From positions 64,001 to 128,000 of the IMG/VR virus record IMGVR_UViG_3300035034_002381: a stretch of 64,000 nt of DNA, one strand, 5' to 3'. Positions 15,112 to 56,571 of the stretch are shown piece after piece. The notes under the pieces were generated by a model. That model saw nothing but the letters and a program-made list of their open reading frames with translations, made no database searches and was not told the DNA's origin. Both the position numbers and the translations under genes were made by a program. How positions within the stretch are numbered: the first letter of the stretch is position 1; every line of letters starts with the position of its first letter. The DNA is from a virus.

Positions 15112-15948
15112 ATGAAAATTAAGAAGTTTTCTGAGTTTTTATTTGAAAAAGAAAATGTCAAGGAATTGAGATTATGCTTTGTTGGAGATATTATGCAACA
15201 TGATAAAGTCGTGACTGACGATTCATTCGAAAACGTGAGGTCACTTCTAAAATCTGCTGATATCTGTGTGGGAAATTTAGAAACTATAATTACTGGTGAA
15301 AACAATAATGAAATAATTGATGGGCAAATTAAATTTAGTGCTGATGAAAGTCTTATCAAAGTTTTAAAAAATGTTGGCTTCACACATTTATCTCTCATTA
15401 ACAATCATTCACTTGACTATGGAATCGCAGGATTTCAAAAATCACAGACTGCGGTTGCTAAAGAAATAAAAATACTTAGTAAAGAAACAGAAATTTCCAA
15501 GAATGATCATAAGATCAATCTAGTTAACTTTACTACACATGTTAATAATAATATTAATAATGAATTTTCGGATCATCTAATGACACCTGACGGTTATTCT
15601 AGTAAAGCTAAGAGCATTAATATAGGATATATCCATTGGGGAGGGCAATATAACCCTAAACCCGATTCTGAACAAAAATCTCTAGCATCTAATCTAATTA
15701 ATAATGGATATCCTATTGTTATTGGTTCAGGCCCACACGTTAATCATAAAGTTGTTCGAGATGGTGAATCGATTATTGCGTATTCTTTAGGAGATTTTAT
15801 AAGTAAACACAATGATGATAGAGCTAAAGATCAAGGAAAGATTTTGATTATAGATTTTAAAAATGATATCATTGATAATGTTATGGTTTATACGACACAG
15901 ACCGATAAGAATAACGTTATCCAAATTAAAAAAAGAGAAATAATTTAG
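15112..15948 (+). CDS. CapA-type metallophosphatase with capsid-targeting tag
   Basis: The 278-residue protein begins with the tag MKIKKFSEFLFE|K and then a full CapA/PGA_cap metallophosphatase domain. Visible motifs are VGDIMQ (24-29), GNLE (54-57), NNHSLDYG (97-104), HWGGQY (175-180), GPHVN (207-211) and YSLGDF (224-229), in the order and spacing of this calcineurin-like family. The residues expected to hold the two metals (D26, N55, N98-H99, H175, H209) are present. CapA-like proteins act in poly-gamma-glutamate or cell-envelope polymer metabolism. With the head tag, the inferred role is an injected hydrolase acting on an envelope or nucleotide substrate. There is no signal peptide, so it is not simply a secreted host protein. 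Confidence 0.85.
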   Translation: MKIKKFSEFLFEKENVKELRLCFVGDIMQHDKVVTDDSFENVRSLLKSADICVGNLETIITGENNNEIIDGQIKFSADESLIKVLKNVGFTHLSLINNHSLDYGIAGFQKSQTAVAKEIKILSKETEISKNDHKINLVNFTTHVNNNINNEFSDHLMTPDGYSSKAKSINIGYIHWGGQYNPKPDSEQKSLASNLINNGYPIVIGSGPHVNHKVVRDGESIIAYSLGDFISKHNDDRAKDQGKILIIDFKNDIIDNVMVYTTQTDKNNVIQIKKREII

Positions 15949-15988: not shown

Positions 15989-17242
15989 ATGAAAAGAAAC
16001 ATATTATCATTTAGCGAATTTTTGCTCGAGTCTGTCGCAATACCCCAAGATGTTACAAAGTCAATAGCAGAATTTCATAAATTACAATCAGAAATAACTC
16101 GAGTTACTGCAGAACTTGAATTTCTAAAAGATGAATTTAAAGAGTTCGACGAGATGGTCGATCCTGTACTCACAGGATTAAAGGAGACTAACAAAAAAAT
16201 TGCGATTACTGAGGGTTATGCAATTAAAATTTCTCGTTTTGGTTATGAACGCACAAATAAATCTTATGCTAAAGCTTTTAAAATGGCTTTATCGAAAGTT
16301 AATAAGTCAACTCAAAAAATTCTAAGTGAGGCATTGGAAGCTTCTGCAACTACGTCAAAGATAAAATCCTCATATTCGATTGATAAATTATCAGAAGGTG
16401 AAATTAACGAGGCAGGAATTTGGGCTAAGATTGGAAAGGCGATTAAAGGTGTAGTCGGAAAATTTCTAAATATTTTTAAAAGAGAAATCAAAACTATTGA
16501 TCAATCAAATAATGAACTTGAAAAACTTGCAAGTCAATTAAGCGAATCTATTGATGAAAAAAAATCCGAAATTGAATCTATCAATGAAGCCATGAAAGAT
16601 ATTTCTAGACTAGAAAGTATTAAAAAGAAATCTGGTGGAAATCCTAATAAAGCTGCTATGTATGCTCGAAATATGGCCAAGTCTATTAAAGATAAACATA
16701 AAGCTTATGCCCGAGGAAAGGCGGCAATCGAAGTTTTTGGTGACGAGGGCGGAGAATTGGCAAGAATCTTTTTTGATAAAGCTAAAACTTTAGGTTATGA
16801 TATTGCTAAATCAGAATATCAAGATTTGAAGGTTATTGAAAAACCGATGCCAAGAACTTTGAAAAAAGGAAAGGATTTAACAGAAGCTAAAAAGCACGAT
16901 GGTAGAGAAGGATCTTCATGGGGTCATGGTCGTGATGGTGATCCAATTTTACCTATAGGTTCTGTTAATTTTATCAGTGGAAAAAATAAATATTTTAATG
17001 TTTATGAAACCTGGCCAGACAGTGTTTTGGAAATTTGGAAGACTAGAGATGGTAAATATCGAGCAGTCTGTACAGCGGGTAAAGGACCTATTTATAAAAT
17101 AGGCACAAGTAATTCGTTTATTCATGATCAAAACAGTAGATATTTATTTGGTGGTGAAATGGTTGATTGGGTAGAAGTTGAAGGTATGATGAATCTTGTA
17201 GATCTTTATGGTAAATCAATGCCCACATACACATATAAATAA
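15989..17242 (+). CDS. Predicted internal head protein, multi-domain with internal protease sites
   Basis: 417 residues beginning with the tag MKRNILSFSEFLLE|S. A long coiled coil follows (about 22-60). Near residue 133 comes LSEGEINE|AG, with two L/I-x-E sites, directly before an amphipathic basic helix GIWAKIGKAIKGVVGKFLNI that could bind membranes or DNA. A second coiled coil follows (about 170-215), then a compact C-terminal domain with GSVNFISGKNKYFNVYET and GGEMVDWVEVEGM. Cleavage at the internal sites would release the amphipathic-helix protein. No enzymatic family recognised. Confidence 0.6.
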   Translation: MKRNILSFSEFLLESVAIPQDVTKSIAEFHKLQSEITRVTAELEFLKDEFKEFDEMVDPVLTGLKETNKKIAITEGYAIKISRFGYERTNKSYAKAFKMALSKVNKSTQKILSEALEASATTSKIKSSYSIDKLSEGEINEAGIWAKIGKAIKGVVGKFLNIFKREIKTIDQSNNELEKLASQLSESIDEKKSEIESINEAMKDISRLESIKKKSGGNPNKAAMYARNMAKSIKDKHKAYARGKAAIEVFGDEGGELARIFFDKAKTLGYDIAKSEYQDLKVIEKPMPRTLKKGKDLTEAKKHDGREGSSWGHGRDGDPILPIGSVNFISGKNKYFNVYETWPDSVLEIWKTRDGKYRAVCTAGKGPIYKIGTSNSFIHDQNSRYLFGGEMVDWVEVEGMMNLVDLYGKSMPTYTYK

Positions 17243-17244
17243 AA

Positions 17245-17559
17245 ACTAAAACTATACTAAATTTCAAAGAACATTTAAACGAATCTAAAAGCGATTTCGT
17301 GGTTTATCATAATCAGTATTCAACAGCAATTAATGAGGGTGAAAAATATGCGAAAGCTAGAGGTTATGAATTAGATCAACAGGAATATTCAAATGCGTAT
17401 TTAGACGCATTCTTTAAACCTGAAGAAGGTAAGACTAAAAAGGATAGTTTTAAGCTTTTTAAAAATGATAAAGAACAAAGAAAACAACTACATGTTCAAA
17501 TATACAATCGCGGTATGAAAAAGTTTGAACTAAATATGTACATAAACAATAAAAAACTA
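17245..17559 (+). pseudogene. Tagged gene lacking its start codon, fused in frame to the next gene
   Basis: Reading in frame from 17248 gives K-T-I-L-N-F-K-E-H-L-N-E|S, a perfect tag without its initial Met. The codon before it is ACT, and the leader aaaaactaaaactata equals the usual leader aaaaactATGaaaactata with exactly ATG removed. The frame stays open through GTG 17299 (MVYHNQYSTAINEG) and runs without a stop into the second tag at 17560. The text just before 17560 (aataaaaaactaatg) looks like a normal intergenic leader, so a stop has probably also been lost through a frameshift. Residues visible include YSTAINEGEKYAKARGYELD. A GTG or ATA start could still give expression, in which case this would be the N-terminal part of a double-tagged protein. 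Confidence 0.5.
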
Positions 17560-18852
17560 ATGAAAAGAAATCTTAAATTATTTGAAGAATTTATAAATGA
17601 ATCTTTTTGGTCTTTATCTAAATTAGGTGATAAATTCGATCAATTATTATCAAAAGAACTTAAAAAAATTAAAGGCTGCATATTTTATGTGAAAGGAAGA
17701 GATTTATATTGTAATGATGAATTACTTTTTAAAATAAATGGTGATAAAGATTCTGTAGAAAGTATTGTCAAAAAAGTTAGATTAAAGTTGAACGAATCTT
17801 TAATTAATGAAAAAGAATCTTATGAAAGAGGTTGTGCCATGCTATACTTTGAAAGTAATTGCACCAAAGAGGTTCGTGAGATGATTAAAGAAGAGGATTT
17901 ATATGTTGAGGAAGGCGATGTTTCTTTTGGTAAAGAAACAGAACCTCATTGTACTTTACTTTATGGGTTTGATAAAAAGGTAGAAGCAAATGAAGCATTG
18001 AAAATTTGTGAGAATTTTACATTTGAAGCATGTGAAGCACATAACATTTCTTTATTTGAATCTAAAAAATATGATGTTTTGAAATATGATATCAAAGGTA
18101 AAAATATTAAGGAATGTAATGAAGCCCTTTCTGATTTACCCTTTGAATCTGATTTTCCTGATTTTCACCCTCATATGACTGTTGCATATCTTCAACCAGG
18201 TAAAGGAAAGGAATATACTAAAATGATTAAAGAGTCTCATGCAAGATTGCAAGTGAATCCAGAAAAAATTGTTTATTCTCATCCTAATGGTAAGAAAGAA
18301 GAAATCCAAGTTTTAACGGAAGTTAAAGAAAATGAAAAAGATAATCCTTGCTGGGATGGTTATGAAATGATCGGTATGAAAACTAAAAATGGTAAAAAAG
18401 TTCCTAATTGCGTACCTATAGATGAATCAATTACCGAAAGTCGTGGGCCTAATAGTTTTGAACACTATTTTAAAAACGCCAAGAAAAAACTATCTAGATC
18501 CGGTTTCAAGATAAAAGAAGTTAAAGATACTTATATTAAAGATCATACTGCTATTGTTATTATTTATACTGAGTCTGGTCCAGGTGGTGGAGATAATGAA
18601 TGGATACAAATATTTTATAATACTGAGGAAGAAAGAAAGAAGATTTATAAAGAGTTTGATATCGATGAATCTGTAAGCGAAGGGAAAAAGGATGATAAAA
18701 AAGGCTGGTATAAGGATAAGAAAAAATGGAATCAGGCAAGAAAAAAACTAACTAATGTAGCCGATGACAATGAAATCTGGAGCAAAAATGCGGATGCAGA
18801 TATTATTGCCTTTTGGTATGACGAAAAAGACGAAGGTTGGGTACAAAAATAA
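17560..18852 (+). CDS. 2H phosphoesterase with capsid-targeting tag and extra C-terminal domains
   Basis: Start chosen at the ATG at 17560 because it begins the tag MKRNLKLFEEFINE|S. The frame is open upstream to a GTG at 17299. A linker holds LNESLINE|K (77-84), two further protease-type sites. Residues about 90-250 form a 2H phosphoesterase (LigT/CPD-like) domain with both H-x-T signatures, HCT (130-132) and HMT (205-207, in FHPHMTVAYL). Family members hydrolyse 2',5' or cyclic phosphodiesters of RNA and nucleotides; phage anti-CBASS Acb1 belongs to this superfamily. Next is a CWDGYEMIGMKTKNGKKVPN motif (264-283) common at the ends of phage structural proteins, then an unrecognised domain. 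Injected anti-signalling enzyme is inference. Confidence 0.75.
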   Translation: MKRNLKLFEEFINESFWSLSKLGDKFDQLLSKELKKIKGCIFYVKGRDLYCNDELLFKINGDKDSVESIVKKVRLKLNESLINEKESYERGCAMLYFESNCTKEVREMIKEEDLYVEEGDVSFGKETEPHCTLLYGFDKKVEANEALKICENFTFEACEAHNISLFESKKYDVLKYDIKGKNIKECNEALSDLPFESDFPDFHPHMTVAYLQPGKGKEYTKMIKESHARLQVNPEKIVYSHPNGKKEEIQVLTEVKENEKDNPCWDGYEMIGMKTKNGKKVPNCVPIDESITESRGPNSFEHYFKNAKKKLSRSGFKIKEVKDTYIKDHTAIVIIYTESGPGGGDNEWIQIFYNTEEERKKIYKEFDIDESVSEGKKDDKKGWYKDKKKWNQARKKLTNVADDNEIWSKNADADIIAFWYDEKDEGWVQK

Positions 18853-18859
18853 AAAGAAT

Positions 18860-18892
18860 ATGAAAACATTTAAAGAATTCTTAAACGTTTGA
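18860..18892 (+). CDS. Orphan tag minigene (MKTFKEFLNV-stop)
   Basis: ATG followed by ten tag residues and TGA: MKTFKEFLNV. The sequence is the shared tag with the final E replaced by V and immediately stopped. The leader (ataaaaagaatatg) looks like that of real genes. No continuation of the same frame resembles a protein, so this is either a relic of a deleted tagged gene or a recombination scar. Expression as a 10-residue peptide is possible but unproven. Confidence 0.45.
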   Translation: MKTFKEFLNV

Positions 18893-18917: not shown

Positions 18918-19283
18918 GTGAAGTATATAATCAGTTATAAAGATCTTAATGAAAAAGTTGATTTGGATAAAGTCGAGCGATACGCAGATTTTCAAATGGA
19001 TCCCACTGATGTCGAGTTTAGTCGGCATTTTTTCGATAGACTTACAAGAATCGAACATAACGATGATGAGATAACTGATGATGATTTAATGGGATTTTTT
19101 AAAAGGTTAGCTAAACATAAAAAGAAGTTTCAAGATTTTATTGATCGTTATGATCAATTTATAGTTAAAGACAGAGAAACTCAAATTAATATTCCTTTTC
19201 AGAAAAGAATTGACCAAATAATTGCTAAAACTATTATGCGTAAAAAGGATTTTAAAACTCGAGATAAAGCTTACGTTATGTAA
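18918..19283 (+). CDS. Conserved phage protein with variant tag, GTG start
   Basis: 121 residues from a GTG. The N-terminus MKYIISYKDLNE|K is a short variant of the tag. The body has the pattern VEFSRHFFDRL, DDDLMGFFKRLAKH, INIPF and KTIMRKKDFKT, which I recognise as a recurring small-protein family of T4-like phages (often with VAKTVMRKKDFKT near the end), of unknown function. The acidic N-terminal half and basic C-terminus suggest RNA or DNA binding, by inference only. It lies just after the orphan tag minigene. Confidence 0.6.
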   Translation: MKYIISYKDLNEKVDLDKVERYADFQMDPTDVEFSRHFFDRLTRIEHNDDEITDDDLMGFFKRLAKHKKKFQDFIDRYDQFIVKDRETQINIPFQKRIDQIIAKTIMRKKDFKTRDKAYVM

Positions 19284-55394: not shown

Positions 55395-55831
55395 AACATA
55401 TAAAATCATATAAAGAAATTCTTAACGAGTCTATTAATTCTCGAGTACGTTCAAAAATTGTTAAGTTACTCAAGACTCAAGGAATTCAGCATAAAGTAGA
55501 TTATGAATATTCTGCTGGACATTTTTTGGTGCCTACTATAGAAGCAGCTGAAGATATTGCTGATGCGATCGGTGATAAATTTCATGTGACTATTTTAGAT
55601 AGAAAGGGTAAAGAAGGAAATACACTTGTAATGATAACTGAAGATGTTAATGAGGCTATCGATTATATGGAAATGGATTATAATTCAAGAAAAGAAATTC
55701 TTAAAAAAACCTTTCCAGATCTTATGGAAGATTCAGTAAAAGATTACGCTTTAAAAACATTTAAAGAATTACCGCCAGAAATGCAAAAAGAAATAGCTGA
55801 ACAATATAACGTAATACTAAAAGATCAATGA
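55391..55831 (+). CDS. Predicted internal head protein with capsid-targeting tag
   Basis: 146 residues beginning MKHIKSYKEILNE|S. The first half is a small alpha/beta unit (GHFLVPTIEAAEDIADAIGD then KFHVTILDR), the second half is helical (EILKKTFPDLMEDSVKDYAL KTFKELPPEMQKEIAEQYN, in two parts). Function unknown. It lies between two nucleotidyltransferase genes with ATGA overlaps at both ends. Confidence 0.6.
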   Translation: MKHIKSYKEILNESINSRVRSKIVKLLKTQGIQHKVDYEYSAGHFLVPTIEAAEDIADAIGDKFHVTILDRKGKEGNTLVMITEDVNEAIDYMEMDYNSRKEILKKTFPDLMEDSVKDYALKTFKELPPEMQKEIAEQYNVILKDQ

Positions 55832-56571
55832 AAAATTTTGTAAGTTTCTCAAACTTTGTTAATGAATCTCAAAAAGATACACAGGGAAATACACCTGTCA
55901 ATATTTTGATTGGTAGATTTGATCCCTTCCATATCGGGCATTATTCTGCTGCGAAAGAATTAGTTGATAAAAATGGCTATCCTGTAGTAATTGTTTCTGT
56001 TAGAGGAAAGGGAGATTTTGGAAAGGGTACAACAGTAAGTAAAGAACTTTTTGATAAAATGGTTTCAAAGCTTGTAAAGACTGTGCCATTTATTAACGGA
56101 CACATAGAAATAACTAATGTTTCTTTTGATAAACAATTGTTTGTGAATCTTAGACCTAAGTATGAACCTGTACTTTTAGGAGCAGGCGCAGACAGAATCA
56201 AAGGATATACTGCGCAAATGAATTCTTTCAGAGACAAAAAGGGCAATGTAATTAATATGCGCCAAGATTTTGATGTAGTTCAAACTTCACGAAAAGCAAG
56301 TGGCACTGAGGTCCGTGAAATAATTTCTAAAAAAGATAAAAAGAATTTCTTAAGATTAATGCCTAAAGAACTTCATAATTTTTGGGATGAACTGGTCAAA
56401 GAACTTAATGAGACAAAAAGACCATTATCTTACCATATTGATATATATGATAAGGCCATACAAAAATTGGTAGAAAGTAAGAAAAAAGATAACAAAACTA
56501 TTTCAACAATAGAAAGATTAATAGTGGAGAAGACTAAACTAATCCAAAATTATTCTGATCTTATTAAGTAA
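55828..56571 (+). CDS. NMN-adenylyltransferase-like enzyme with capsid-targeting tag
   Basis: 247 residues. The tag MKNFVSFSNFVNE|S is followed by a complete HxGH-type nucleotidyltransferase domain: LIGRFDPFHIGHYSAAKEL (HIGH at 35-38), a central loop with GAGADRIKGYT and the C-terminal ATP-site motif SGTEVR (157-162, the S-x-T-x2-R of NadM-like NMN adenylyltransferases). Family enzymes join a mononucleotide with ATP, most often NMN to NAD. In a phage head it would be delivered with the DNA to act before phage transcription; that is inference. The extra C-terminal part is helical (KKDNKTISTIERLIVEKTKL). Confidence 0.78.
   Translation: MKNFVSFSNFVNESQKDTQGNTPVNILIGRFDPFHIGHYSAAKELVDKNGYPVVIVSVRGKGDFGKGTTVSKELFDKMVSKLVKTVPFINGHIEITNVSFDKQLFVNLRPKYEPVLLGAGADRIKGYTAQMNSFRDKKGNVINMRQDFDVVQTSRKASGTEVREIISKKDKKNFLRLMPKELHNFWDELVKELNETKRPLSYHIDIYDKAIQKLVESKKKDNKTISTIERLIVEKTKLIQNYSDLIK

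Follow-up and report, generated by a model that had tools for sequence, protein, structure and literature searches.

A head-tagged 2H phosphoesterase in a distant T4-like phage, a candidate injected enzyme against nucleotide alarm signals

A distant T4-like phage encodes a 2H phosphoesterase that begins with a leader resembling those of the T4 internal head proteins, and a comparable pairing of leader and enzyme recurs among its phage relatives and on true Acb1 enzymes of some Aeromonas phages. The gene lies in a window of 64,000 nucleotides (positions 64,001 to 128,000 of IMG/VR record IMGVR_UViG_3300035034_002381, a virus record of 173,506 bases). Judged from sequence, delivery of the 2H enzyme in the phage head is likely; an anti-signalling role in the infected cell is reasonable and plausible, and as yet unproven. 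In T4, the counter-defence proteins known to be injected act by blocking restriction enzymes. If true, head delivery of an enzyme directed against nucleotide alarm signals would put the T4-type route to a new use and account for how phages might counter fast signalling defences.

The leader and the modules behind it

The gene (17560..18852 of the window, plus strand, as are the parts of the gene and the upstream stretch given below) is an open frame from an ATG and encodes a 430-residue protein with the N-terminus MKRNLKLFEEFINES. Its true start is uncertain, because the frame remains open upstream to 17239 and this in-frame stretch (17239..17559) holds a second tag-like sequence, LNFKEHLNES, with no ATG, GTG or TTG ahead of the tag. 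The capsid-targeting-like leader MKRNLKLFEEFINE (17560..17601) ends in a putative cut site, INE|S, and conforms to the T4-type pattern aromatic-x-x-F-[I/L]-x-E. Its aromatic-x-x-F-I-x-E spacing is identical to that of T4 ipII and ipIII, whose N-termini read MKTYQEFIAE|A in the sequences compared here; ipI begins with MKTFKEF. In IPIII, residues 4 and 7 have been mapped as important for targeting and residues 8 and 10 for processing (PMC9026906), and the window tag matches the T4 spacing at each of these positions. The head tag described in the earlier note is borne out: the pattern stands at the start of 14 of 182 plus-strand open reading frames in this genome versus 2 of 897 internal Met codons, and the tag is not a chance occurrence.

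Together with a gp23 capsid protein, the same genome encodes a prohead protease of the S77 type, and head proteins contain matching sites. The protease-scaffold protein (691 residues) carries 10 [IL]NE motifs, that is 14.5 per 1000 residues versus 1.5 genome-wide, an approximately tenfold enrichment, and a single occurrence of the reversed motif; the gp23 major capsid protein contains LNE|A at residues 41-43. These sites provide evidence from within the genome that [IL]NE is where the tag would be cut. The prohead protease and a long scaffold-like portion with abundant [IL]NE sites form a single fusion protein (G000:C1 17120-19192 of the genome). Leaders of a similar kind occur on other genes, at window positions 1227, 2147, 3468, 15112, 15989, 28821, 52595, 55391, 55828 and 58365; among their cargo are, at 15112-15948, a PGA_cap-type protein and, at 55828-56571, a cytidylyltransferase-like one. 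The T4 internal proteins IPI, IPII and IPIII, which are injected counter-defence proteins (PMC12373910), share with the window protein an N-terminal targeting leader of the same residue spacing, a protease site, and an accessory, diverse cargo. By contrast, the cargo in the window is a multi-module enzyme of a distant T4-like phage, and its packaging is predicted from sequence.

Beyond the tag and the 2H domain, modelling depicts the protein as a string of modules, with prohead-protease-like [I/L]xE sites between the small C-terminal ones. In the full-length AF2 model, a helix (residues 2-15) is followed by a small alpha-beta-beta-beta-alpha module (residues 15-84; 17602..17811; pLDDT about 80-85), the 2H domain (residues 85-251; 17812..18312; pLDDT about 96) and a beta hairpin that coincides with the CWDGY module, CWDGYEMIGMKTKNGKKVPNCVP (residues 264-286; 18349..18417); the C-terminal modules are weakly modelled. 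According to the site list, the first small module terminates in LNE|S and INE|K immediately N-terminal of the 2H domain. The site list and the full-length model also place protease-like sites IDE|S and ITE|S in a disordered linker (18418..18438), and IDE|S and VSE|G next to another disordered linker (18661..18681); between them lies a second alpha-beta-beta-beta-alpha module, modelled with low confidence (residues 299-365; 18454..18654). Low-confidence stretches at residues 12-20, 257-264, 286-298 and 372-387 fall at or beside the INE, LTE, IDE/ITE and IDE/VSE sites, respectively. For the modules at residues 15-84 and 293-430, no relatives were found in viral contigs.

Other phages carry the CWDGY...VPNCVP module on their portals and head maturation proteases, which gives the window protein a second link to the head. 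As the pattern CWDGYEMIGxKxKxGKxVPNCVP (23 residues, two Cys), it recurs across many phages, including in a kinase-like protein and in short proteins. Loci returned by the first full-protein search match mainly this module. PHROG 9737 (E 1.6e-11) was likewise rejected as a whole-protein family, since CWDGY...VPNCVP causes the match and portals and proteases with only that module match too. Downstream of the gene, 18860-18892 contains another tag start, MKTFKEFLNV followed by a stop, which looks like a broken tagged gene just before a small open reading frame (18918-19283); the latter weakly resembles T4 RegB endoribonuclease (E 0.032) and likewise the end of PHROG 23027.

Leaders among relatives and on true Acb1 enzymes

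Profile searches assign the 2H domain to a large phage family: no fewer than 398 stretches match in IMG/VR viral contigs, and 84,980 cellular genomes gave 5 weak matches. A leader directly precedes the 2H domain in all but seven or eight of the 80 best loci; since these are the top-ranking matches to the query, leaders may be less frequent in the family at large. Within their last 14 residues, 54 of 55 distinct leaders contain [ILVMF]xE, compared with 22.7±3.4 after shuffling. The leaders fall into aromatic FxxF, LxDLLxE, LAGLI and MGINE types, and parsimony on the 2H tree counts about 15 changes of leader class, which is an upper estimate given that many branches are weak; among the rows used, leader loss is confined to one clade. 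In several loci, the leader type is common to neighbouring genes. Tested over all loci, this agreement is strong for aromatic and MGINE leaders and absent for most LxDLLxE leaders within 3 kb; LAGLI and MGINE leaders gave few matches in pattern searches of whole records. Two relatives in phages of 630-640 kb have other leaders (MKLKKYKQFIKES and MIKKYLEFMKES) inside arrays of tagged genes. The recurrent pairing of leader and 2H domain is well supported by these comparisons as a feature of the family. Virion delivery, too, is well supported, on the grounds of leader retention and site enrichment, leader swaps, and the [IL]NE sites in the protease-scaffold protein and gp23.

T4-like leaders are also found on true Acb1 enzymes. 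Acb1 of phiAS5 (57B; L276:1447-1941), whose N-terminus is MIRSFSEFITEA, includes the lid and reaches 113.6 bits against Pfam Acb1; the Acb1 proteins of Aeromonas phages Aeh1 and PX29 (L268 and L269) and several metagenomic Acb1s begin similarly. The leader-bearing proteins of phiAS5, Aeh1 and PX29 are annotated merely as 'RNA ligase' or hypothetical, and no description of their leaders was found in the literature; nor, in a search that covered few subscription journals and preprints, was any paper found that joins capsid targeting with anti-CBASS activity. Because these true Acb1 enzymes bear the leader, the idea is directly testable: the phages exist and an assay for the activity is established. 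Acb1 proteins of the T4 group mostly have a short F-x-x-F start without a cut site, and acb1 (57B) adjoins ipI in T4. T4 itself provides no support for injection, because its Acb1 becomes active about 15 min after infection (PMC9117128). Of the earlier proposal that the enzyme is injected and acts at the onset of infection, delivery thus finds support in sequence, whereas the timing runs counter to that of T4 Acb1.

The 2H fold and the likely substrate

The two H-x-T motifs from which a 2H phosphoesterase had originally been recognized are confirmed as such. All 58 of the 58 divergent relatives compared retain the H and T of both HCT (residues 130-132; 17947..17955) and HMT (residues 205-207; 18172..18180). 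AlphaFold predicts a confident 2H fold (pLDDT 92), and the best Foldseek matches are 2H enzymes with probability 1.00.

Several sequence comparisons point towards Acb1. The window protein reaches 27.4-30.1 bits with Pfam Acb1 (cut-off 27), which 5 of 10 sampled relatives exceed and 5 do not, but it stays below both RNA-ligase-type cut-offs (26.7 vs 27 for PF13563; 20.5 vs 23.3 for PF02834). When all PDB sequences were searched by profile, three chains matched, each of them an Acb1 (E 0.006-0.11); single-sequence phmmer against PDB gave no match. Aligned by hhalign, the family scores 96% (E 4.8e-9) against the Acb1 alignment, 46.7% against the single T4 Acb1 sequence and 1.5% against the single E. 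coli LigT sequence, where the last two comparisons involve single sequences. Like Acb1 (T4 57B, FBB1, BCSR5; PF23474), the window protein is phage-borne, adopts a 2H fold with two HxT motifs, has F/Y-x-D-Y-x-PHxT as its second motif and retains aromatics at the W74 and F107 positions; the T4-like leader is shared with some true members.

Other features set it apart. In Acb1, Y12, W74 and F107 are base-stacking aromatics, and E141 and W147 belong to the lid (PMC9117128). Among the relatives studied here, the W74 position is occupied by F and the F107 position by F or Y, but the Y12 position by Ala or Val. The domain stops at the last strand and thereby lacks the C-terminal lid to which E141 and W147 belong; 3 of 58 relatives have a W near the end. 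Moreover, the window protein has a leader and extra modules, and T4 Acb1 acts late in infection. The 2'-5' RNA ligase/CPDase/LigT group (PF13563, PF02834) belongs to the same 2H superfamily, and several relatives pass the cut-off of PF13563 (2_5_RNA_ligase2); two from huge phages (L091 and L093) score higher with it than with Acb1. The window protein differs from this group in falling below its cut-offs, and none of its members was matched by profile among solved structures. It does match PHROG 755 ('RNA ligase') with E 1.4e-9.

Comparison of the predicted structure with Acb1, LigT and CPDase, as the earlier note had suggested, places BCSR5 Acb1 first by E-value in Foldseek, but Usb1, CPDase, LigT and poxvirus cGAMP phosphodiesterase are near. 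We rejected the structural ranking as a means of naming the substrate, since TM-scores are higher for the poxvirus enzyme and Usb1 than for Acb1; the predicted fold appears generic for 2H proteins and without power to discriminate substrates. As the lid residues and Y12 are missing, the fold is generic and some relatives score higher as 2'-5' RNA ligases, we do not file the window protein as Acb1. The suggested Acb1-like action on signals hence retains the backing of the PDB profile search and hhalign but not of the specificity residues or Foldseek. A cyclic oligonucleotide appears the likeliest substrate, a proposal for which we judge the scales evenly balanced.

Proposed course of infection and alternatives

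We infer the following sequence of late expression, packaging, cleavage, injection and substrate. The protein would be made late, and its leader would dock it into the prohead core, as for the T4 internal proteins. The prohead protease would cut after INE, and probably also at other [I/L]xE sites, to leave the 2H domain free in the head, from which it would exit together with the DNA. In the cell, two-histidine catalysis would cleave a 2'-hydroxyl-assisted phosphodiester, most likely in a cyclic oligonucleotide alarm signal of CBASS or type III CRISPR, and a first counter-defence dose would be present ahead of phage gene expression. Taken as a whole, this account of a head-delivered, cut-free, injected, cyclic-oligonucleotide-cleaving 2H enzyme is possible, with its probability slightly under the even mark.

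Alternatively, the head-delivered enzyme could work on RNA ends. In RNA repair or decay, it would open the 2',3'-cyclic phosphates that ribonucleases of the host or the phage leave behind, as in tRNA damage or RegB-like cutting. Relatives above the 2_5_RNA_ligase2 cut-off, the structural neighbours Usb1, CPDase and LigT, a kinase and a phosphatase in the genome that resemble polynucleotide kinase, the weak RegB match of the next open reading frame (E 0.032) and the fusion of one relative to an RNase_T-type exonuclease all fit such a role. We nevertheless deem it less likely: the PDB profile search matches Acb1 and neither LigT nor CPDase, no RNA-repair gene is conserved as a neighbour among the 80 best loci, and no RNA ligase was found in the genome by PF09511 or PF09414 (for PF09511, no positive control matched). 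Removal of cyclic phosphates is a task that T4-type polynucleotide kinase already performs, which also counts against this role. An improbable third substrate would be a different nucleotide signal or metabolite that bears a vicinal 2'-OH, such as 2'-5' oligoadenylate-like molecules or ADP-ribose cyclic phosphate. The absence of Acb1 specificity residues would suit it, as would the occurrence of CPDase, viral 2-5A phosphodiesterases and poxvirus cGAMP phosphodiesterase in the Foldseek list, but no sequence link is stronger than that to Acb1.

Delivery itself could be doubted if the leaders were not head tags and served other targeting or were inherited N-terminal sequence. A direct match to T4 exists for the aromatic class alone, LxDLLxE, LAGLI and MGINE being assigned by analogy, and many loci of these three types have no matching leader within 3 kb; yet the spacing identical to T4 leaders, the enriched protease sites, and the retention of leaders despite swaps of type render this explanation just as improbable as the third substrate. 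A purely structural or DNA-packing function of the 2H domain as an internal protein, with no need of catalysis, would accord with its inferred virion location and with extra modules common to structural head proteins, but is very hard to reconcile with both HxT motifs being invariant in 58 of 58 divergent relatives.

Extended beyond the window, the reading of a preloaded signal-degrading enzyme would imply that a 2H enzyme is packed in the heads of many T4-like and huge phages, true Acb1 taking this place in some Aeromonas phages, and destroys CBASS or type III CRISPR signals from entry, with leaders swapped to fit each head and the enzyme kept. We advance this generalization slightly more tentatively than the account for the window protein.

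The 2H domain also occurs in other settings. Among the 2H proteins of Maribacter phages Molly and Colly, that of Molly is about 32% identical to the window protein, but has neither leader nor extra modules. In a 634 kb phage, a single protein (L091:4001-5314) combines tag, 2H domain and RNase_T-type exonuclease. BFVD matches include 2H domains inside very large phage proteins, such as an 883-residue 'putative structural protein' of Gordonia phage GMA2 and a 1030-residue protein of an uncultured phage, which perhaps reflect another route into virions.
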